IMG/VR virus record: IMGVR_UViG_3300010413_002523
Location: 1-37,762 of that record
Strand: one strand, 5' to 3'
DNA length: 37,762 bases
From: a virus
The notes below the pieces were generated by a model. The model was not told where the DNA came from. It was given only the letters and a program-made list of their open reading frames with translations, and ran no database searches. How positions within the stretch are numbered: position 1 is the stretch's first letter; each line of letters opens with the position of its first letter. The translations under genes were made by a program, and so were the position numbers. Positions 3,103-27,295 of the stretch are shown piece by piece.

Positions 3103-3127
3103 TAAGCCCGGTTGGTAACCCCCGCGT

Positions 3128-3165
3128 GCCCCGTCCGGCCACTTGGCCGGGCGGGGCCTCTTTTT
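3128..3165 (+). terminator. Rho-independent terminator after the polymerase block
   Basis: A 13-bp GC-rich stem (3128-3140 with 3145-3157, one G:T pair) closes an ACTT loop and is followed by CTC and five T. It ends transcription of the polymerase and tail-rich gene before the recombinase gene, whose ATG is at 3177. Confidence 0.88.
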
Positions 3166-3176
3166 GTAGGACTGAC

Positions 3177-4586
3177 ATGGGAAAGAAAAAGAAGCAAGTA
3201 ACAGTCATAAGCGATGACGACCGCGCGAAGTTGGCCGACGCGGCGTTCAATCAGATGGTGCAAGAAGTACAGGCCAAACTGCAGAAGAAAGGGCTGCTGG
3301 TAGGACACGACGCGACGATCACAGTTCTACCCGTGCCGGCGTTCATCATCCGCTATCTGCTGCAGAACACAGGACTGCCATTGCAGTGTGTGTATCAGAT
3401 AGTAGGTCCGCAAGGCTGCTACAAGTCGACGTTCGCGGTGGAGATCGTGCGCTGGCATATACTTTGTGGTGGTTACGGTCAGTTGAATGAGGCTGAAACC
3501 AAACCAACACCGGAGCTGCGCAACAGTGTGCTGAACTGGGATGTCGCGCGCCTGCACATCGAGGACTGCGCTACATTCGAGGACTGGCAGCGCAAGGTGC
3601 TGATCGGCAACGAGCGCATGCAGAAAAATCTGATGAAGAACGAGTTGCTCGGTCGCAGGATTCCATTCTGTCAAATCGTAGATTCGCTGATGGGCAAGGC
3701 CAGCGAGATCACGCTCAAGAAGATCAAGGAGGTTGGGCATGCTTCGCCGCACTTCCCGATTGAGGCACGCGAGATGGCAGATTTCATGCGCGCATTCCCA
3801 CAGGATATGTTGGGATGGCCGTTCACGTTCGTTGGTGTTAACCATTTGAAGATCAACAAGGACGCACAGACTGGCGAGGTGGATTACAACATCCCCGGCG
3901 GCTGGTCACTGAAATTCCAGTGCGCCGCGATCATCGAGATGGAGCGTATAGGCAAGATCCGTGAATATGCCAACTACAAAGCAGCGACAGTGAAGCTGAA
4001 TACGCTGAAGAACTCGTACGGAGCCGACAATGTTCGGATTAACGTGCGGTTCAAGACTTGGTACCAGGAAGATGCTCCTGGTGTCTATAGGCTGCACAGC
4101 CGCTTCGAATGGTGGGAGGCCGGCATCCTGTTCTTGGCAACTGGACAAGGTCTGACCAAGACGCGTGCGGATTCATTGGTACCCAAAATGCGCGAGGTCT
4201 GCGATGTCCATGAGAAGAGCGGCGGAAGCGCAGGCAAACTGTACTGGTCTAAGCGGCTGGACGTGCCGTCGAGTGATGCTATGTCCGCCCACGATCTTGG
4301 TATGCTGCTGGAAACACGGCCGGAGGTACTAACTGATCTGTACACATTGCTAGAGATCACACAGCAGCCATACTTCAAACCGGGCGTCGACTTTATGAAG
4401 CAGCAGCAGGGCTACGAGTACGTGGCAGCGCAAAGCGATGCTGTTGACGAGATGGTCGCGCGCATGCGCGCTATCGAGCAGGAGCATGCACAATTAGGGC
4501 CAACGACTGAGCAATATCCGCAAGGTGTTGAGCCAGCGGCAGCATGGCCACAACCACCAGATGAAGATCCTGAGGAGTTGCCATGA
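3177..4586 (+). CDS. UvsX/RecA-like recombinase ATPase
   Basis: Predicted ATP-dependent strand-exchange protein acting in phage recombination and repair. Walker A is GPQGCYKST at residues 77-85. Walker B is CQIVDSL with Asp at 169. A further RecA-type segment, FTFVGVNHLK followed by GGWSLKFQCAAIIEMERI, resembles the L1/L2 loop region of UvsX and RecA, where a conserved Asn or Gln and a GG precede the basic strand. At 469 residues it is longer than RecA (about 350) and T4 UvsX (about 390); the last 60 residues are charged and Gln/Pro-rich. The ATG at 3177 has AGGA (3168-3171) upstream. An in-frame start at 3126 would sit inside the terminator and is not believed. The stop overlaps the next ATG (ATGA). 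Confidence 0.82.
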   Translation: MGKKKKQVTVISDDDRAKLADAAFNQMVQEVQAKLQKKGLLVGHDATITVLPVPAFIIRYLLQNTGLPLQCVYQIVGPQGCYKSTFAVEIVRWHILCGGYGQLNEAETKPTPELRNSVLNWDVARLHIEDCATFEDWQRKVLIGNERMQKNLMKNELLGRRIPFCQIVDSLMGKASEITLKKIKEVGHASPHFPIEAREMADFMRAFPQDMLGWPFTFVGVNHLKINKDAQTGEVDYNIPGGWSLKFQCAAIIEMERIGKIREYANYKAATVKLNTLKNSYGADNVRINVRFKTWYQEDAPGVYRLHSRFEWWEAGILFLATGQGLTKTRADSLVPKMREVCDVHEKSGGSAGKLYWSKRLDVPSSDAMSAHDLGMLLETRPEVLTDLYTLLEITQQPYFKPGVDFMKQQQGYEYVAAQSDAVDEMVARMRAIEQEHAQLGPTTEQYPQGVEPAAAWPQPPDEDPEELP

Positions 4587-5078: not shown

Positions 5079-6191
5079 ATGAACAAACTTCTGGCTGCGC
5101 ATACACTGCAAGAGTTCAACAGGCTAGAACTCGACGATTTCATGGAAACGCTGCAGGATGTGGATCAAAGCACCGTGCGCACATCGATCAACAGTGCGCA
5201 AGATATCAAGCTCAGTCCTGAGTGGCGGCTGGTAAGCAACGGGTTCAAGCTTTCACTACTTGCGGCCAAACAGCTCTGTAATCATGTTGCACGGGGCTTG
5301 TGGCCGCTGGCGGCCGATATCGGCGGGCTGCAAAGAACGGCACGCGGATACGACAACGCAATCTCGGCGCCAATGGCGGCCAATATCGTCAACGGCTGTG
5401 CAATACTGCGCTTCAATGCCGTGGAAGGGATCTGCGGGCGCGATATGGTCGTGAATCATGCTACTCGCACTGTCGACGGTATAATTGGCCCGCGCTACCG
5501 GCTGCTGCCGCATCATCAGTTAATAGATGCGGTAATTGAAACCCTGCCGTCGTGCACGACACCGCTTGAGTTTCATTCCAGTCGTCTATGGGATCGCCGC
5601 ATGACTGCGACGTTCATGTCCGTGGAACACCTCGTCGCGATTGAGCCCGATTTGGTATTTGGCGGACTATGCATCACCAATAGCGAGGCGGGCGAGTGCG
5701 GCATTCGCTGCTCGCTGATGTTAGATTTCGGCGATGGTCTTCGGTGCCTGGCACGTCCTCGGCACATTGCACACTCTGGCAAAGACTTCGGCCGTCGCCT
5801 TGGAAGGCTACTGGGTGGCGTATTAAGCCCCGAATGGTGGGCGTATATGTCTTCCTCTGCTGAGTTGGCGAAGCATGTGCTGAAAACGCCACTGGAGCTG
5901 CTCGATACAGCCGAGAAGAAGATAAGCAGCACGAAACGTACGCGGCTCAAGATGCTGCTAGCCGATTACGTCGACAAAGGGATCGCTACATCCCTTGTCC
6001 GACAAATCATCTACATGGGTGCGGACGGCAAAGAAATCCCGCAGACAGTTAGCGCTACAGAAATCAAGGAACGTACCATGCGCGATGTTGTGTTTACGCT
6101 GATGCGCGCTGCACAGCATCAATACTCTGATACCCGGGAGCGACTGCAGCGCGCCGCATTCGACTTTCTCACAAGGAGCATTCGGATCTAA
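5079..6191 (+). CDS. DUF932-like phage protein (tentative)
   Basis: A protein of 370 residues from the ATG at 5079. A GTG at 5043 would add 12 residues but overlaps the previous gene by 26 bases, so the ATG is preferred although its ribosome site is weak. The middle part contains GIIGPRYRLLPHHQLIDAV. This resembles the signature of DUF932 (phage/plasmid-like TIGR03299) proteins, in which a VGxxYxxxxN-type turn is followed by a helix. A later DFGDGLRCLARPRHIAHSG segment also fits a mixed alpha/beta fold. DUF932 proteins are common beside phage recombination genes but have no firm biochemical role. The family call rests on a short match by eye. Its stop TAA shares one base with the next ATG. 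Confidence 0.78.
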   Translation: MNKLLAAHTLQEFNRLELDDFMETLQDVDQSTVRTSINSAQDIKLSPEWRLVSNGFKLSLLAAKQLCNHVARGLWPLAADIGGLQRTARGYDNAISAPMAANIVNGCAILRFNAVEGICGRDMVVNHATRTVDGIIGPRYRLLPHHQLIDAVIETLPSCTTPLEFHSSRLWDRRMTATFMSVEHLVAIEPDLVFGGLCITNSEAGECGIRCSLMLDFGDGLRCLARPRHIAHSGKDFGRRLGRLLGGVLSPEWWAYMSSSAELAKHVLKTPLELLDTAEKKISSTKRTRLKMLLADYVDKGIATSLVRQIIYMGADGKEIPQTVSATEIKERTMRDVVFTLMRAAQHQYSDTRERLQRAAFDFLTRSIRI

Positions 6192-7126
6192 TGGCCAAAA
6201 ATCTACCGGCGAAGGTAGACGATTACACTGCCTTACAGGCGCAGTCGACATTCAACGAGGCCGAAAGGAAGGCCTTCAAGGATTTGTCGGACTACATCAG
6301 GAAACACACCAAGGACACGATTTGGTGGTACTGGGAGCTTGGCCAAAAGGTCAAGAAGATCTACGACGAGGCCAAGAATGCGCATGGCGTATACGGGCAG
6401 CAATTCATGCCGCGCCTTGCGCGTGCCTTGGGGTTTCAGAGCGACAGTCAACTGCGCAGCTCAATGCACGTGGTGGCAGCGTTTGAGACGAAGAAGGCCT
6501 TTGGCGAGTTCGTTAAACTGCAAGGCGAGGCGGGCAACGTATTGTCGTGGTCGCACATCGTCTATCTGTCGAGTATCGGCGACGATGAAACACGTATGAC
6601 GCTTGCTGCGGCGACGTTAAGCCAAGGGTGGACAGCCGCAGACCTGTGGCAGAAAGTCAAGGAGCTTTGCAGCAGAAAAGCGCGAGGTCGTCGTAACCCG
6701 GTCATCAAGATTCCGGCATCCGCACGTTCTTGCATTACGCATGTGACCTCACAGGCAGAGAAGTTCGTATTCAACTACGACAACGCCTGGACTGGGGATG
6801 CCTTCGATCTGCAGAACACCGTTCGCCAAATACCTGCGGACAAACTCAACGACAAGCTGCTGGATTCGGTACGTACAGCTCGTGGGCAGGTCAGCGAAAT
6901 GCAGCGGCGCGCCACGGAGATGGCGGATATACTGGCCAATACCGAAACTGACATCGCAGCGCGAATGGCTGCGCAAGCTGAATTGCGCGCGCAACAGGAA
7001 GCCGATCTTGCTGCAGCTGCCGGCACAGATGCCACACCCGAAGCGCCTGCCAGTGTGCCGCGTATAGCGAAACCAACGCGAAGGCACGGACCCACGCGTC
7101 CAGGACGGGTTGGAACAAATCGGTGA
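6191..7126 (+). CDS. DUF1016/YhcG N-terminal-like protein with coiled-coil tail (tentative)
   Basis: A 311-residue protein. Residues about 40-170 contain YWELGQKVKKIY, YGQQFMPRLARALGF, LSWSHIVYLSSI and LSQGWTAADLW. That order is reminiscent of the winged N-terminal domain of DUF1016/YhcG (Trp-rich helix, YG, a helix ending in GF, LSWSH, GW). Those proteins pair this domain with a PD-(D/E)XK nuclease, but I see no nuclease motif here. Instead residues about 220-270 are a Gln/Glu/Ala-rich helix that could form a coiled coil, and the last 40 residues are basic and Pro-rich. It may be a DNA-binding or scaffold protein. Stop and start overlap with both neighbours indicate one operon. The family assignment is weak. 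Confidence 0.8.
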   Translation: MAKNLPAKVDDYTALQAQSTFNEAERKAFKDLSDYIRKHTKDTIWWYWELGQKVKKIYDEAKNAHGVYGQQFMPRLARALGFQSDSQLRSSMHVVAAFETKKAFGEFVKLQGEAGNVLSWSHIVYLSSIGDDETRMTLAAATLSQGWTAADLWQKVKELCSRKARGRRNPVIKIPASARSCITHVTSQAEKFVFNYDNAWTGDAFDLQNTVRQIPADKLNDKLLDSVRTARGQVSEMQRRATEMADILANTETDIAARMAAQAELRAQQEADLAAAAGTDATPEAPASVPRIAKPTRRHGPTRPGRVGTNR

Positions 7127-10508: not shown

Positions 10509-11028
10509 GAACCAGCTGAAAAGATTGCGGTCTCTGGCGGACGAAGGATACGTGAACCCATACAGGATGAGCAGAATGGAGATCATCAAATATCCTGACA
10601 ATCGTCTAACCGTCTCGGCGATGCCAGTCGAAACTGTTAATACTGCATTGCGCGAATCGATTAGGCAGATGCTCAAGCTGATGTATGAGCACGGCGGCGT
10701 AGGCCTTGCCGGTCCGCAGGTGGGGCTGGAGCTCTGCGTGATAGTGATGAACACATCTGGTGATCCGCAGCAGAAAAACAAGGAGCGCGTGTTCATCAAT
10801 CCGGTCATCACGCACTACCACGGATCGGTGATGAGCGATGAGGGATGTCTCAGTGTTCCTGGTGTTACTGGACGTGTAAACCGCGCTGAGCGCGTCGTGC
10901 TACATGCGTTTGGCCTAGATGGCACTGAGATAAATGAACCATTCAAGGGAATGGATGCAATCGTGTTACAGCACGAGTACGACCATCTTAGCGGGATACT
11001 TTTCATCGACAAACTGGTCGGATCTTGA
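10498..11028 (+). CDS. def: Peptide deformylase
   Basis: Removes the formyl group from the N-terminal Met of nascent proteins, using a metal ion in the cytoplasm. All three family motifs are present: motif I GVGLAGPQVG (residues 67-76, with Gln74), motif II EGCLS (Cys117), motif III QHEYDH (His159, Glu160, His163). Cys117 and the two His bind the metal and Glu160 is catalytic. Motif I reads AGPQ rather than the usual AAxQ. From the ATG at 10498 the protein has 176 residues, with about 27 residues before the usual start of the fold (MEIIKYPDNRL). An internal ATG at 10576 with AGGA eight bases upstream gives a typical phage-sized enzyme and may be the true start. The stop overlaps the TTG of thyX. 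Confidence 0.94.
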   Translation: MMDENQLKRLRSLADEGYVNPYRMSRMEIIKYPDNRLTVSAMPVETVNTALRESIRQMLKLMYEHGGVGLAGPQVGLELCVIVMNTSGDPQQKNKERVFINPVITHYHGSVMSDEGCLSVPGVTGRVNRAERVVLHAFGLDGTEINEPFKGMDAIVLQHEYDHLSGILFIDKLVGS

Positions 11029-11903
11029 AATTCGTCAAACCGCGGACATTCCTAATTGGCCATACAACGATTGATCGTGAGGGCCTTGAGGAATATCTGC
11101 AAGCAACGGGGCAGGAAGACTTCCTGAAATCATACGATGCGGCAATCCTGGACGGATTGTCGCCTGAAGAAGCACTCATTTCTTTCTACGCGAAGCTCTG
11201 CTACAAGTCGCTAATCGAGGGCAGGAACGACAATGTCACGCGTGTGCGCGGTATTAAGGATAACATCAAGAAGTGCTTAGAGACGGGACATGGTTCCGTG
11301 TTTGAGCATATCTGGTTCAACTTCGTGACAACCAACTGCTCACGTGTGCTGACCCATGAGTTCGTACGTCACCGTATCGGAGTCGCTTTCAGTCAGACCT
11401 CCGGGCGCTATTGCCGACTCGATAAGATCGAGTTCGTCCGTGATCCAAGCCTTTACGATGTTGAAGAAGACATCGTGAAGATCGTCAAGAAAATAGAGAA
11501 GGCCTACAAGAAGCTGGTCAAGAAGAAGGGCCTGGATCGCGACGACATCGATTTTGCTCTCAAGAAGAAACTGACATCTGCCCTGCGGCGGATTGCACCG
11601 AACGGCCAGGCCAACGAGATCGGCTGGTCGGTCAACATTCGCGCGCTGCGGCATATCATCATGATGCGCACGTCACGTTATGCAGAGCGTGAGATTCGCT
11701 ACGTGTTCAATCAGGTTTACAAGATGATGGTGGACCGATACCATCTGCTCTTCCTTGATGCCAAGGAGAAGGAAGTGGATGGGCTATTGGAGATCAAGGG
11801 TATGAAGATGCAGCAATACGATCTGACGGTCGACGCGCTGTCAGACGATGAGCTCATCGCAGTGCTCCGCGAGAGACACCCAGACGTCGGTTACGAGATC
11901 TGA
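11025..11903 (+). CDS. thyX: Flavin-dependent thymidylate synthase ThyX
   Basis: Makes dTMP from dUMP using methylenetetrahydrofolate, FAD and NADPH. It has EHIWFNFVTTNCSRVLTHEFVRHR, the family segment leading to the ThyX signature, then RHRIGVAFSQTSGRY with RHR at 115-117. The family pattern is RHR-x7-S; here Ser126 lies eight residues after RHR, one more than usual. NIRALRHIIMMRTSRYAEREIRYVF is the expected C-terminal dUMP/flavin-binding helix pair. Length (292) is above many ThyX (220-250), with a Lys-rich insert near residues 150-180. The start is a TTG overlapping the deformylase stop (TTGA). No ATG fits the beginning of the fold, and a weak GGA precedes it. The substrate could also be a modified pyrimidine, but dUMP is the default reading. 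Confidence 0.93.
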   Translation: MKFVKPRTFLIGHTTIDREGLEEYLQATGQEDFLKSYDAAILDGLSPEEALISFYAKLCYKSLIEGRNDNVTRVRGIKDNIKKCLETGHGSVFEHIWFNFVTTNCSRVLTHEFVRHRIGVAFSQTSGRYCRLDKIEFVRDPSLYDVEEDIVKIVKKIEKAYKKLVKKKGLDRDDIDFALKKKLTSALRRIAPNGQANEIGWSVNIRALRHIIMMRTSRYAEREIRYVFNQVYKMMVDRYHLLFLDAKEKEVDGLLEIKGMKMQQYDLTVDALSDDELIAVLRERHPDVGYEI

Positions 11904-15035: not shown

Positions 15036-16148
15036 ATGCCCGGCGGAACGACCTATACGATTCCGGACGGGCTCGTTGAGGGCGTGGATTATCCCGCGCC
15101 GCCCGATATCCGGCTGGTAAAGCTGGATGAATTAAATGTGGACCCGCGATATCAGCGGCGTAAAATCCCAAAGGTAATCGAGCGCATCGCTAAGGATTTC
15201 GATCCGGTTGCAGCAGGCGCGATGGTTGTCGGCTTTCGGAATGACGGCTCGGGATGGGTCGTAGATGCGCAGCAACGGCGCGAATCAATGACGGAAAAAG
15301 GTTTTGGTTACGGTTGGGCAAGCTGTTTCCAATCGCAAGGATATCGCGATGAAGCGGCTCGCTTCGACCGGATAAACGGCAGAAACCGCATTCCTATCGG
15401 CGCTTTGCAGCAATTCAAATCGCTCATCGCGAAGGGCGATTACAAAGCGCTATGCATCCGCAATGCGGTGGAAAATGCCGGAATGTACATTCCACTTCCG
15501 CCAGGGCTGCGCCGAATCAAACAGCCCGCTGCTGGTGCGCTCAAAGTTAAGTGCGTCAGGACGCTGCAAGCGATTTATGAACATGGGCGCGATTTGAGAA
15601 ATGCGAAAGGGCATCTCGAGATGGTGCTCGATATCGCTACGCGTGCGTGGGGTAAGCATCCCGAACAGGCAGTTCGACGCGAATTGGCATCCAATGAGGT
15701 GCTATGCGGGTTGTCGATATTGTTGGCGGGATTGCCAACCCTCCGTAACGACAAGAAAAGCATCGCACGGCTGGTACACGTGTTGTCGGGCATACTGCCC
15801 AAAGACCCTAAGACGATGTACAAGGAGGGAAAAACCATACCGGAATGGCGCGGCAAGCACGCGCTGCACTTCGCAATATGCTACCTGCGAGTTTACAACG
15901 GTGGGCTGCATGCAAAGAATCGACTGGCGCTTACTTTTACGCAAGGTGAACCCTCACCTATGCAAGACGCGCCGCAACCGAGTCTTGCCAGCAAATCGCA
16001 GGCACCCGCCGCGGCAGTCGAAAGCACCGATGTGCACATCGAAGAAAAGCCGAAGCACTCCGACGGCTATGATGTGTCCAACGGCAAACCAGGCGATGAC
16101 GACGTGAAAGTCGTGCGGCAGAACGTCAACAAGCAGACTAACAGCTGA
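15036..16148 (+). CDS. ParB-like nuclease-domain protein
   Basis: A 370-residue protein with a ParB/Srx-type N-terminal domain. VKLDELNVDPRYQRR (about 25-40) is the opening strand and arginine turn. VIERIAKDFDPVAAGAMVVGFR follows, then WVVDAQQRRESM in place of the canonical DGQHR/GExR box; here it is DAQQRRE. ParB-like domains in phages serve as DNA binders, nickases or CTP switches, and this one cannot be placed further. The middle is helical; the last 70 residues are Pro/Ala/Lys-rich and probably disordered. The ATG at 15036 is 18 bases from a GAGGTGA site, which is far. The stop overlaps the next ATG by one base, and a RuvC-like gene follows shortly. Confidence 0.8.
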   Translation: MPGGTTYTIPDGLVEGVDYPAPPDIRLVKLDELNVDPRYQRRKIPKVIERIAKDFDPVAAGAMVVGFRNDGSGWVVDAQQRRESMTEKGFGYGWASCFQSQGYRDEAARFDRINGRNRIPIGALQQFKSLIAKGDYKALCIRNAVENAGMYIPLPPGLRRIKQPAAGALKVKCVRTLQAIYEHGRDLRNAKGHLEMVLDIATRAWGKHPEQAVRRELASNEVLCGLSILLAGLPTLRNDKKSIARLVHVLSGILPKDPKTMYKEGKTIPEWRGKHALHFAICYLRVYNGGLHAKNRLALTFTQGEPSPMQDAPQPSLASKSQAPAAAVESTDVHIEEKPKHSDGYDVSNGKPGDDDVKVVRQNVNKQTNS

Positions 16149-23270: not shown

Positions 23271-26219
23271 ATGTCATACCTGATCCCGAATTTTACATCT
23301 GGGTACAATCGCGGCGCACAGAACGTCGAGCCCTTCCCGGATCCGTTCTGTGACTATGCATCGACTGCGATGCCCTCGTCGCTACACAACGCATTCCGGT
23401 GGTGCGAGTATATCTTGCTCGCAAACGGTCCATATCGATCGGCCATCGATCGTGTTATTGCGTACCATATCACTGAGGTCGAGATCGAGGGCACCGACCG
23501 TGACGGCAAAGAGAAGTACCTCGATTACCTCAACAACACGATTGGTATTATCGCGTTGCTACGGCTTGCGGCAATGGACTACTGCTGCTTCCACGGTGAC
23601 ACGCAAGTGCCGACCCGCCAGGGAACATTTCCGATTCGTGAGCTAGTTGGGCGCACCGTGGATGTCATTTCGCGTGATGGTGTGTACCGGTCTGCGCAAT
23701 TCATGCATTACGGGCGCCAGCAGCTGATGGAGGTTACGTTGTCTGATGGACAGCGGATCCTTGCGACACCGGAGCATAAATGGCCAATCCACTGTGGATC
23801 GGGTGCGGAGACGACCGTGACTACGGCGGAGCTCAAACCCGGTCACTCACTATTCCGTACTGTAGCGCCGCGCCCTGAGAGAAATGCGGAATTTTATGAG
23901 GGCGTGCGGCATGGTTTCACATTTGGTGACGGGTCGCTTTACAACAGAAAGGCGCCTAATAAAACAACTAAGGCTGTGGCGAATTTCTTCGGCGACAAGG
24001 ACGCTGCGATGCTGCCATACTTCGAAGGGCACGGTACGTTGCCTTCGACACGGCGTATGGTTGGAAATCACACCCTCGTCAAGATTCACGGATTGCCAGC
24101 GCATTACAAGCTGCTGCCTGCCGCCGATGCCGGTGCCAGTTATTGGTATGGCTTTATTTGCGGATTTTTGGCAGCCGATGGCAGCGTGGATACGCACGGA
24201 TGCGTGGTACTGACACAAAAATCTCGTGCGACCCTGGAGGCGATCAAACGTCAGCTCCCACGAGTCGGTATGGCAGCGGGCCCTATCCGTTCTCAGGTGC
24301 GTGAGACATCACTGCCACCCGGTGCGCGTTCGTACAGGTCAACGATACATTTTTTGACCCTTCTGAAGCAGACCATAGAGCCTGCGGCGCTTTTGATTCC
24401 GCGGCACAGAGAGTTATTTGAGCGCAACTACGCACCATCAGGCTACGGTCGGCGCATAATAGTCCGCGACGTCGCGAAGACCGGTCTCGAGGACGATGTG
24501 TTTTGCTGTGTCGAACCGGAGACGCACACCTTTGTGATCGAAAATGCGGTCCTAACGTCTAATTGCTACGGCAATCATTTCGCCACTGCGATCATGCCAT
24601 TCAGACGGGCACTCTCGTGCCCAGGCTGCAGCTTTGAAGCGCCACTGAATCGTATTCATAGAAACGAAAGATTCAGCTTTTCATGGTCGGATTTCGCATT
24701 CCACGCGACGTGCCCGTTCTGCAATTACCACGGCAAATGGACGCACATCGATCGACGCTCGCACGAGGAAGACGATCTGATCATCAAGCGCTGGAGCCCA
24801 CATGAGCTAGAACTCGTATGGGATCCGTATACAGATCAGGTTGGCCATATCTGGCGAATCCCCCAGCATTACAAGCAGTATATCAGCAAAGGTACCTTGT
24901 TCCACTTGGAGCGTGCGCCATGGGAGGTGGTGCAGGCGATCAAGCACGGTACGCACATCGAGTTCAACAAAGATGTGCTGTACCACGGGAAGGAAGATAC
25001 CTTTGCCGGCGTACTCAACAAGGGTTGGGGAGTCAGCCGTGTTCTGACTAACTTCCGGCAGGCCTGGTACCTACAAGTGTTACATAGGTACAACGAGGCC
25101 ATCGGGTTGGACTACATCATCCCATTCCGCGTTCTAACGCCGGAACCACGACCTGGTGGTGCTGGCGGTGGCGGCGAGATGACTGACCCAATGTTCACTG
25201 CAGATCTAGGAGGGTTCACAGGGCAGGTAACTGCCATGCTTCGGCAGCGCAGGCGCGATCCGACGATGTGGTTCACACTGCCGTTTCCGTTGCGATACCA
25301 AGCATTAGGTGCCGAAGCAAGCCAAATGGCGCCATACCAGCTAATGGATCAGGCGCTAGACACGCTGCTATCATCCATCGGAATCCCGGTACAGTTCTAC
25401 AAGGGCGACCTTTCGATTCAGGCTGCCCCCGCTGCGCTGCGTCTGATGGAGAGCCACTGGAGCCACCTCACTCGGCTTCTGAACAACTTCTTGCAGTGGA
25501 TCTGCAATAAGATCAGCGTGGCTCTGAGTTGGGATGAAGTGACAGCACGGCTAGCACGGCCGAGCCACGCAGATGACCTGAATCGTCAACTGGCTGTGCT
25601 GCAACTTATGCTGGCTGGCCAGGTTTCCCAGACCACCGGGCTTCGCAGAGGCGTCGGGCTGGTCTTCGAGGATGAACAGAAGCGTATCCTCGACGAGCAG
25701 AAGTTCGTTGCTGAAGAGGCCCAGAAGGCCCAGGAAGAGCTTCAGGCAGCCGGGCTGGGAGATCAGCTTGCTATGGGTATGGGCGCCGTAGGCGGCGATC
25801 CTGCGGCTCTGGGAGCGGCTCTGGGCGCGCCTGGTGGCGGTCCTGCCGCCGGCGCCATGGCAGCACAACCAGCCACAGGCGCTACCGGCGCCACGGCACC
25901 GACGCCGGAACAGGCCATGATGCCGATGGACCCAGTACAAGCAGTGCTAGCACAATTGCCCACCGGGGCGGAGCAGGCCGCGTCGCCGCAAGAACTGCAG
26001 GCGATAGCGACAACCGTCGCACAGCAGCTATTCGCTATGCCTGGCGGGCAGCGACAGTCCGCGCTGCGGCAAATCAAGCAGCGCAGTCCGACGATCCATG
26101 CCATTGTCAAAAGCATGCTGGAGCAGATGGACTCACAAGCGGAAGCGCGAGGCCGTGCGGCTAGTCAGCAAACAGCGCAAATGGCGCAGCAGCAATCAAT
26201 GGCCCCGCCGCCTGTTTAA
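23271..26219 (+). CDS. Portal protein interrupted by an intein
   Basis: The portal forms the ring through which DNA enters the capsid. The precursor has 982 residues; removing the 326-residue intein leaves 656, a normal portal size. Portal-like features are the N-terminal PYRSAIDRVIAYHITEVEIEG, the YGN motif after the insertion, and a middle with GIPVQFYKGDLSIQAAPAALRLMESH followed by an aromatic helix, as in portal clip and stem regions. The Gly/Ala/Gln-rich tail (from about 830) is flexible. Unusually, a zinc-ribbon-like pair CPGC (450-453) and CPFC (481-484) lies just after the insertion site. The ATG at 23271 has AAGGA (23258-23262) eight bases upstream. The portal call rests on overall character and length, not on one signature. 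Confidence 0.82.
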   Translation: MSYLIPNFTSGYNRGAQNVEPFPDPFCDYASTAMPSSLHNAFRWCEYILLANGPYRSAIDRVIAYHITEVEIEGTDRDGKEKYLDYLNNTIGIIALLRLAAMDYCCFHGDTQVPTRQGTFPIRELVGRTVDVISRDGVYRSAQFMHYGRQQLMEVTLSDGQRILATPEHKWPIHCGSGAETTVTTAELKPGHSLFRTVAPRPERNAEFYEGVRHGFTFGDGSLYNRKAPNKTTKAVANFFGDKDAAMLPYFEGHGTLPSTRRMVGNHTLVKIHGLPAHYKLLPAADAGASYWYGFICGFLAADGSVDTHGCVVLTQKSRATLEAIKRQLPRVGMAAGPIRSQVRETSLPPGARSYRSTIHFLTLLKQTIEPAALLIPRHRELFERNYAPSGYGRRIIVRDVAKTGLEDDVFCCVEPETHTFVIENAVLTSNCYGNHFATAIMPFRRALSCPGCSFEAPLNRIHRNERFSFSWSDFAFHATCPFCNYHGKWTHIDRRSHEEDDLIIKRWSPHELELVWDPYTDQVGHIWRIPQHYKQYISKGTLFHLERAPWEVVQAIKHGTHIEFNKDVLYHGKEDTFAGVLNKGWGVSRVLTNFRQAWYLQVLHRYNEAIGLDYIIPFRVLTPEPRPGGAGGGGEMTDPMFTADLGGFTGQVTAMLRQRRRDPTMWFTLPFPLRYQALGAEASQMAPYQLMDQALDTLLSSIGIPVQFYKGDLSIQAAPAALRLMESHWSHLTRLLNNFLQWICNKISVALSWDEVTARLARPSHADDLNRQLAVLQLMLAGQVSQTTGLRRGVGLVFEDEQKRILDEQKFVAEEAQKAQEELQAAGLGDQLAMGMGAVGGDPAALGAALGAPGGGPAAGAMAAQPATGATGATAPTPEQAMMPMDPVQAVLAQLPTGAEQAASPQELQAIATTVAQQLFAMPGGQRQSALRQIKQRSPTIHAIVKSMLEQMDSQAEARGRAASQQTAQMAQQQSMAPPPV
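23586..24563 (+). mobile_element. Intein with LAGLIDADG-type homing endonuclease inside portal gene
   Basis: A protein-splicing element occupying residues 106-431 of the portal precursor. Block A is CFHGDTQV with Cys1 as first residue. Block B is ATPEHKW with the TxxH pair. Block F/G is CVEPETHTFVIENAVLTSN, ending in the terminal Asn, and Cys432 is the +1 nucleophile. The residue before Asn is Ser rather than the usual His. The centre holds two LAGLIDADG-like segments: GVRHGFTFGDGSL and WYGFICGFLAADGSV, each with an acidic residue. This suggests a DOD homing endonuclease that may still cut intein-free portal genes. Splicing would join MDYC to CYGNHF. Confidence 0.9.
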
Positions 26220-26245: not shown

Positions 26246-27295
26246 ATGGCACCGCAGCTCGGGATCGTAACACGCTACCTGCGGAACGAGGTTACGCACG
26301 CCGCGATACACCTCGCGGAGATTACACATGAGCATGGCATCCGATCCACAATCTTCGGTGCCGGCCATGTCTGTCGTGATGTTGCTAAGCGATGGGATGC
26401 AGAGGTCGTAACAGCACAGCAGTGTCCGCTTGTTCAATGGGCAGCTGAATGTGACCATATCGTCTACACGTATGTCCCATCGCCGCGCGAAATCGCGCAC
26501 GTGCAGCACCTAGGTGTCCGTACGACCATCTTGGTGAACTGGGAAGTCCTGTTGCCTACCGATCGTGCAGGCTTCACCAGCTTCGATAACGTGATCTTTC
26601 CATTTCGGTGTGTGGCCAAAGCCATACAGAAGCACTGGCCAGCAAAGTTGCCACCGTCAGTGGTTATGCCATGGGACGTACCAGTTGGGCTCACCACGAG
26701 AGATCCATTGGAGTTGCGCGACACCGCCTGTGCGTACTTCCCACTATACGATACGCAGCCAGGGCGCTGCGATCAGTCGATTTTCGCACTGATGCAGCGT
26801 GTGTTGCTTGAGTTAGAGAACACACGCGTGCTGATTGCATGTGGCGGGGGGTGGTCGCAGTCTTCTAAGCGGGCCCTGCGTCAGCTACACAAGAAGTTCG
26901 GTGATCGCGTGGAAATCGTCATGCGCCCGAATATCTTGCAGCGGTTGCTGCTGTTCGCTCGTGCGGACCTGACTGTCTGGCCATCACGATTCGAAAGTTT
27001 CGCATTGATTGGCCTATACTCACTCTGCATGGGCACGCCCGTGCTCTCGTGGGATATCAGGCCGCAGAACGAATACCTGGAGAACCAACAAAATGCCATC
27101 CTGATACCGGCCAGAACACGCGATAACTGGCTCGGTGTCCCGGAAGTCACCGGGCGCTATCAGGATATGGCTGACGGATTGGTCGGAACCTTGCGCGACG
27201 GCGCACTTTTGGCCAAAATGAAAAAGAACACTACTACTGGTCTGGCCAGTCGTCGAAAGCAGTTCGAAGCTGGCTGGGCCAAACTTTTCCTTTGA
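26246..27295 (+). CDS. Glycosyltransferase, GT-B fold (family 4-like)
   Basis: Predicted retaining glycosyltransferase of the group 1 type. The C-terminal half carries ARADLTVWPSRFESFALIGLYSLCMGTPVLSWD (split here by reading two conserved pieces: a SRFESF segment with Glu, then LIGLYSLCMGTPVL). This is the donor-binding EX7E-type region, though the second acidic residue is replaced by the Tyr/Ser-containing helix. A Gly-rich VLIACGGGWSQSSKRAL precedes a helix in the linker region. Length 349 suits a compact GT-B enzyme. The ATG at 26246 follows the portal by 26 bases without a clear ribosome site. It differs in fold from the enzyme at 7123, so the phage encodes at least two sugar-transfer steps. 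Confidence 0.8.
   Translation: MAPQLGIVTRYLRNEVTHAAIHLAEITHEHGIRSTIFGAGHVCRDVAKRWDAEVVTAQQCPLVQWAAECDHIVYTYVPSPREIAHVQHLGVRTTILVNWEVLLPTDRAGFTSFDNVIFPFRCVAKAIQKHWPAKLPPSVVMPWDVPVGLTTRDPLELRDTACAYFPLYDTQPGRCDQSIFALMQRVLLELENTRVLIACGGGWSQSSKRALRQLHKKFGDRVEIVMRPNILQRLLLFARADLTVWPSRFESFALIGLYSLCMGTPVLSWDIRPQNEYLENQQNAILIPARTRDNWLGVPEVTGRYQDMADGLVGTLRDGALLAKMKKNTTTGLASRRKQFEAGWAKLFL

Follow-up and report, generated by a model that had tools for sequence, protein, structure and literature searches.

What is the block of 326 in-frame residues that interrupts the putative portal gene in the stretch of viral DNA analysed here (37,762 nucleotides, hereafter the window), how would a working portal protein be made from the interrupted gene, and does the block move between phages? 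The initial annotation had read it as an intein with a LAGLIDADG homing endonuclease inserted in a portal gene, and this reading passed every sequence, structure and comparative test that we ran. The block is almost certainly a mobile intein with two functions, inserted at a conserved position in the phage portal gene; splicing and homing would proceed as proposed below.

An intein interrupts the reading frame of the portal gene

The features of the locus are as follows.

23271-26219, + strand: portal precursor ORF, 982 codons, open throughout (translation)
23271..23585, + strand: N-extein of the portal, 105 aa, last residues RLAAMDYC; aligns with the intein-free L006/L007 up to DYC
23586..24563, + strand: intein, 326 aa, Cys1 to Asn326; from profiles, structure and a block missing from intein-free homologues
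23586..23882, + strand: N-terminal half of the Hint splicing domain, residues 1-99; motifs invariant in 13 same-site inteins
23883..24449, + strand: LAGLIDADG homing endonuclease domain, about residues 100-288; PF14528, fold match to PI-PfuI, PI-SceI and I-DmoI
24450..24563, + strand: C-terminal half of the splicing domain; from the 13-intein alignment, with motif definitions of PMC4031507 and PMC5222942
24564..26219, + strand: C-extein of the portal, Cys+1 (CYGNHF...) to stop; matches the Arash portal and the Vibrio phage D181 homologue

Translation of 23586-24563 yields 326 residues without a stop, starting with CFHGDT, ending with VLTSN and followed by CYGN. All motifs named in the initial annotation (block A with Cys1, block B, two LAGLIDADG-type segments, block F/G and Cys+1) were present on this translation. 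Specifically, block A is CFHGDT, Cys1 included, while block B reads ATPEHKW (codons 23763-23783) and contains Thr61, His64 and Trp66. Block F, DVFCCVEPETHTF (24495-24533), contains Cys307 at position F:4 as well as His314, and block G, ENAVLTSN (24540-24563), ends with Thr324, Ser325 and Asn326 directly before Cys+1. This is the full intein block set A, B, F and G, with a nucleophile at position 1, a terminal Asn and Cys+1. The first LAGLIDADG motif, GVRHGFTFGDGS (residues 106-117, 23901-23936), has Asp115 as its acid, and the second, YGFICGFLAADGS (residues 188-200, 24147-24191), has Asp198. Comparison with intein-free homologues shows the intein boundaries to be exact. A search across the whole window did not find a second intein, and direct and inverted repeats around the insertion site showed nothing of note.

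Profile comparison, as suggested in the initial annotation, gave matches over the curated cut-offs for TIGR01445 (intein_Nterm, E=5.7e-7) and PF14528 (LAGLIDADG_3, E=4.8e-5), which disposes of the objection that no Hint-type profile recognizes the block. PF14890 (Intein_splicing) also matched with E=4.8e-5, but below its curated cut-off (23.6 of 35.8 bits). Taken together, the motif and profile match is far beyond chance. An AlphaFold2 model, for which the window intein aligned with 12 relatives served as input, reached a pLDDT of 92.3 and a pTM of 0.90. Its best structural match was PI-PfuI (Z 24.9, 314 residues aligned, 3.6 A), and it also aligned with PI-SceI across residues 1-326. The nuclease part matched the I-DmoI fold, and the splicing part matched the mini-inteins NpuDnaB, Ssp DnaB and gp41-1 and the class 3 intein Msm DnaB. 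The whole-length alignments together with those to mini-inteins point to a Hint domain with an inserted LAGLIDADG nuclease.

The host gene encodes a tailed-phage portal

In a tblastn search, the C-extein matched a Salmonella phage Arash protein that is annotated as the portal (E=5e-34), and homologues were also found in Vibrio phages D69, D148 and D181. The same Arash/Vibrio phage portal homology was obtained again with an intein-free relative as query, while PHROGs merely hinted at a portal (phrog_64, E=0.023). The predicted structure of L006, a model of moderate confidence (pLDDT 62.5), matched the solved portals of HFTV1, phiTE, G20C, T4 and others with E-values down to 1.6e-6, as well as portals in a viral library. 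Homology to the Arash portal and the portal fold of this model indicate that the host gene encodes the portal protein of a tailed phage. In the L006 model, the insertion site lies at the transition from a helix (93-107) to a strand (109-115), and residues D103, G108 and N109, which adjoin it, are invariant in 18 portals.

Shortly downstream of the intein site, the portal contains a four-cysteine zinc-ribbon-like segment (CPGC...CPFC, window 24618-24722), the cysteines of which (C450, C453, C481 and C484 in precursor numbering) are invariant in 6/6 aligned portals. A glycosyltransferase gene lies directly 3' of the portal gene (window 26246-27295), and a similarly sized ORF (349-350 aa) follows the portal directly in L001 and L006/L007. 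Elsewhere, the window encodes a family A DNA polymerase (17-1588), a UvsX-like recombinase (3126-4586), a DUF1016_N protein (6191-7126), a thymidylate synthase (11025-11903) and a DUF6551/ParB-like protein (15036-16148).

Empty and filled sites among related portals

The intein-free portal homologues that the initial annotation proposed to look for do exist. In L006 and L007, two identical stretches from two metagenomes, the junction is contiguous and reads DYC-TYGN, with no insert. The window protein is 81% identical to L006/L007 in the portal alignment, with 82% identity for the N-extein and 86% for the C-extein. Collection scans revealed a related intein at the identical position in 12 further portals, which brings the number of filled alleles to 13 including the window, and 71 portals without the intein were left after screening (L006/L007 and 69 others). 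The 13 filled portals are as little as 24-25% identical to each other. L001 is filled and L033-L038 are empty although the C-exteins of the latter are 97-98% identical to that of L001. No copy of the intein was found elsewhere in the records of L006, L007, L033, L034, L039, L102 and L113. On our analyses, the anatomy, the predicted fold and the exact empty sites of the portal intein are established. In a further record (L101; G019, 193694 bases) the portal is intein-free, and three other intein N-terminal matches are located in ORFs of 1449-2511 residues.

Filled and empty alleles also differ at the residue following the site: Cys+1 is present in 13/13 filled versus 4/71 empty alleles, the latter mostly having Thr, Ser or Ala. 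The Cys+1 codon would either arrive with the intein or be required by it. Among 7 phylogenetically independent pairs, 4-5 were in favour of this association and 0 against, which falls short of significance. The nucleotide sequence surrounding the site varies little between phages (GAYTAC ATG/ACC TAC GGN AAY), as expected for a homing target.

Evidence that the intein moves among portal genes

When the presence or absence of the intein was mapped on a portal tree of 54 rows, at least 7 changes were needed, all of them forced by well-supported branches. The intein thus occurs sporadically at one and the same site and has repeatedly been gained or lost. For close pairs, the ratio of intein to extein distance was 1.2-3.3, meaning that inteins diverge faster than portals, whereas for the most distant pairs it was mostly 0.35-0.65, meaning that inteins are closer to each other than their host portals. 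For L002 versus L010, the inteins are 63% identical and the portals 31%. A slower intein clock fails to explain both ratios, which favours transfer of the intein from one phage to a distant one, although a plateau in intein divergence set by constraint could contribute to the long-range ratio.

Tested against each other's data, the two trees fared differently: the intein tree was firmly rejected by the portals, the portal tree just at the border by the intein alignment (AU test, P-value 0.050). Single portal-supported clades imposed on the intein tree were not rejected in AU tests (P-values 0.10-0.31). In view of at least 7 changes on the tree, and of inteins that resemble each other much more closely than their host portals do in distant pairs, we regard the intein as mobile, and the sequence comparisons strongly suggest horizontal transfer between phages. 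We also considered co-conversion in L001 in the vicinity of the site. Over the initial 100 nt downstream of the site, L001 matches its sisters at 76-82%, versus 83-86% between the nearest sisters, and this small drop is too weak to claim co-conversion.

The homing endonuclease domain appears to be under constraint

In the intein model, two LAGLIDADG helices (residues 101-115 and 184-198) each carry a catalytic acid. These acids, Asp115 and Asp198, are invariant in 13/13 portal inteins, as are the GDG and ADG sequences. In close pairs of relatives, pN was much lower than pS across the nuclease domain as well as the splicing domain (for L010/L011, pN 0.12-0.17 versus pS 0.64-0.68); synonymous sites are saturated in many pairs, including all pairs with the window copy.

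Old inteins frequently lose their homing activity, and the window copy could be partly decayed, such that it still splices while its endonuclease no longer cuts and the element is no longer mobile. One same-site intein (L110:3116-4000) indeed misses about 31 residues between its two LAGLIDADG motifs, which is perhaps early nuclease decay. The nuclease domain of the window intein is, however, of full length with both acids present, and the low pN/pS in close relative pairs spans this domain. We therefore consider decay of the window copy unlikely.

Two potential starting nucleophiles

Trp66 (B:12), Cys307 (F:4) and Thr324 (G:5) form the dispersed Trp-Cys-Thr triad characteristic of class 3 inteins (PMC5222942, PMC7891396), a feature absent from the initial annotation. 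Across the same-site inteins, Cys1, Thr61, His64, Trp66, Cys307, Cys308 and His314 are invariant (13/13) and Thr324 is nearly so. This conservation of the triad and of His64 would suit a class 3 route, in which the N-terminal junction is attacked by Cys307 with the support of Trp66 and Thr324, leaving Cys1 either unnecessary or as a reserve nucleophile. Yet the class 1 nucleophile Cys1 is just as invariant, block B retains an intact class 1 Thr-x-x-His, and Cys+1 is the class 1 norm whereas class 3 inteins mostly have Ser or Thr at this position (PMC5222942). Moreover, Cys is the second commonest residue at F:4 among inteins generally (PMC4031507), so that the combination of Cys1 with the triad may be common in this intein lineage. 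The same combination is shared by the related ribonucleotide reductase/primase-type inteins L005, L017, L019, L020 and L023, the host gene of L020 having no Pfam match of its own. A class 3 start is thus distinctly unlikely, and a class 1 start from Cys1 is preferred. Class 3 sets have been collected as inteins without an N-terminal Cys (PMC7891396), and we do not file the window intein, with its invariant Cys1, as class 3.

The crystal entry 6riz is gp41-1 with C1A, F65W and D107C, an engineered version of the triad without Cys1, and this version did not splice productively (PMC7664689). That the lineage keeps both starting nucleophiles and can start by either route, as a living class 1/class 3 intermediate, is an unlikely reading.

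The penultimate serine is a lineage trait

The penultimate residue is Ser325, as stated in the initial annotation, which went on to suggest that Ser in place of the usual His often retards cleavage at the C-terminus and could render splicing conditional. Slow or conditional splicing of this kind might time portal assembly, and the penultimate His does normally assist Asn cyclisation (PMC7765530). However, His is found in only 1/13 same-site inteins, the other 12 having Ser, Gly or Lys, which makes the Ser of the window intein part of a family-wide pattern; the last residue is Asn in 10/13 and Gln in 3/13. The fast splicer Npu DnaE itself ends with Ala-Ser-Asn. Its splicing half-life is 1 min or less (PMC4031507), and Ssp DnaE, a working intein, also lacks the penultimate His (title of ref. 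87 in PMC4031507). In phage inteins the position is often taken by Gly, Lys or Ser, the penultimate His is poorly conserved in mycobacteriophage inteins, a Gly to His change made splicing of the Bethlehem RDF intein slower, and a His in block F is able to assume the role of the penultimate one (PMC5050341). In view of the absence of this His from 12 of 13 family members and of the Bethlehem RDF result, slow or conditional splicing is unsupported, and we consider it very improbable. That the residue varies across the family likewise leaves conditional splicing without support. The proposed coupling between splicing and capsid assembly comes down to the trivial fact that every essential protein hosting an intein depends on splicing; no sign of regulation was seen.

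Finally, that the 326 residues are an ordinary inserted portal domain, a reading in favour of which we saw no evidence, is practically excluded by the intein profiles, the Hint/LAGLIDADG fold and the exact empty sites, the close homologues lacking the block instead of carrying it as a structural domain.

Proposed splicing and homing cycle

The splicing reaction and the order of its catalytic steps are inferred, as are the cutting of DNA and the sequence that is cut. The 982-aa precursor would be translated, after which the Hint domain would excise itself and join ...MDYC to CYGN... to give a 656-aa portal. Most likely, Cys1 would form the first thioester with the help of Thr61 and His64, a start by Cys307 being the alternative. 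Cys+1 would then take over the N-extein and Asn326 would cyclise, with the last cut aided by a residue other than the penultimate one, for which His314 of block F is the best candidate. In co-infecting phages whose portal gene lacks the intein, the freed LAGLIDADG enzyme would cut this gene at the conserved stretch around GAYTAC-ATG/ACC-TAC-GGN-AAY, and repair of the cut gene would copy the intein in. The sporadic spread of the intein at one and the same site supports such cutting indirectly.

As a natural record of how an intein homes within one structural phage gene, these portals are unusually clear. With this element at an identical codon in 13 divergent portals, and a close empty allele for several of them, they provide a ready system for homing tests in phages. 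As a discovery the finding is modest, since portal inteins are already on record.

Comparison with known inteins

Like PI-PfuI and PI-SceI, with which it aligns over its whole length, the window intein combines a Hint splicing domain with a LAGLIDADG nuclease; unlike it, these two are larger (about 425-454 residues), and the identity is 13-16%. With the class 3 inteins Bethlehem DnaB, Msm DnaB-1 and Bvi IcmO it shares Trp at B:12, Cys at F:4 and Thr at G:5, and its splicing domain superposes on the class 3 structure 6bs8 with 1.7 A over 121 residues. Those inteins lack Cys1 and rarely have Cys+1, whereas the window intein has both.

In a search of cultured phages with the window intein, the 50 matches listed included inteins of ribonucleotide reductases but none of a portal, and the closest relatives among these are ribonucleotide reductase inteins such as that of Thermobifida phage P318 (33.6% identical over 99%, E=6e-40). 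The P318 intein likewise has Cys1, a VFCC block F, Trp at B:12 and Thr at G:5, but it resides at another site in another host gene and ends with Gly-Gln instead of Ser-Asn. Relatives of this intein lineage also occur in cellular genomes (L122, L121, L123 and L120), where the hosts are a DnaG primase (Nocardioides), ribonucleotide reductases (a Cyclobacteriaceae MAG and an archaeal MAG) and a RecD2-like helicase (a Bryobacteraceae MAG).

We found no description of an intein in this portal family in the literature searched, coverage of which was partial. Portal inteins are known from cluster C1 mycobacteriophages, as a PORT group of 6 (PMC5050341 Table 1). These are likewise inteins in a phage portal gene, and the penultimate His is often missing in that phage set, but the portals studied here differ in resembling those of Salmonella phage Arash and Vibrio phage D181. 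The window intein is a new, well-documented portal intein.
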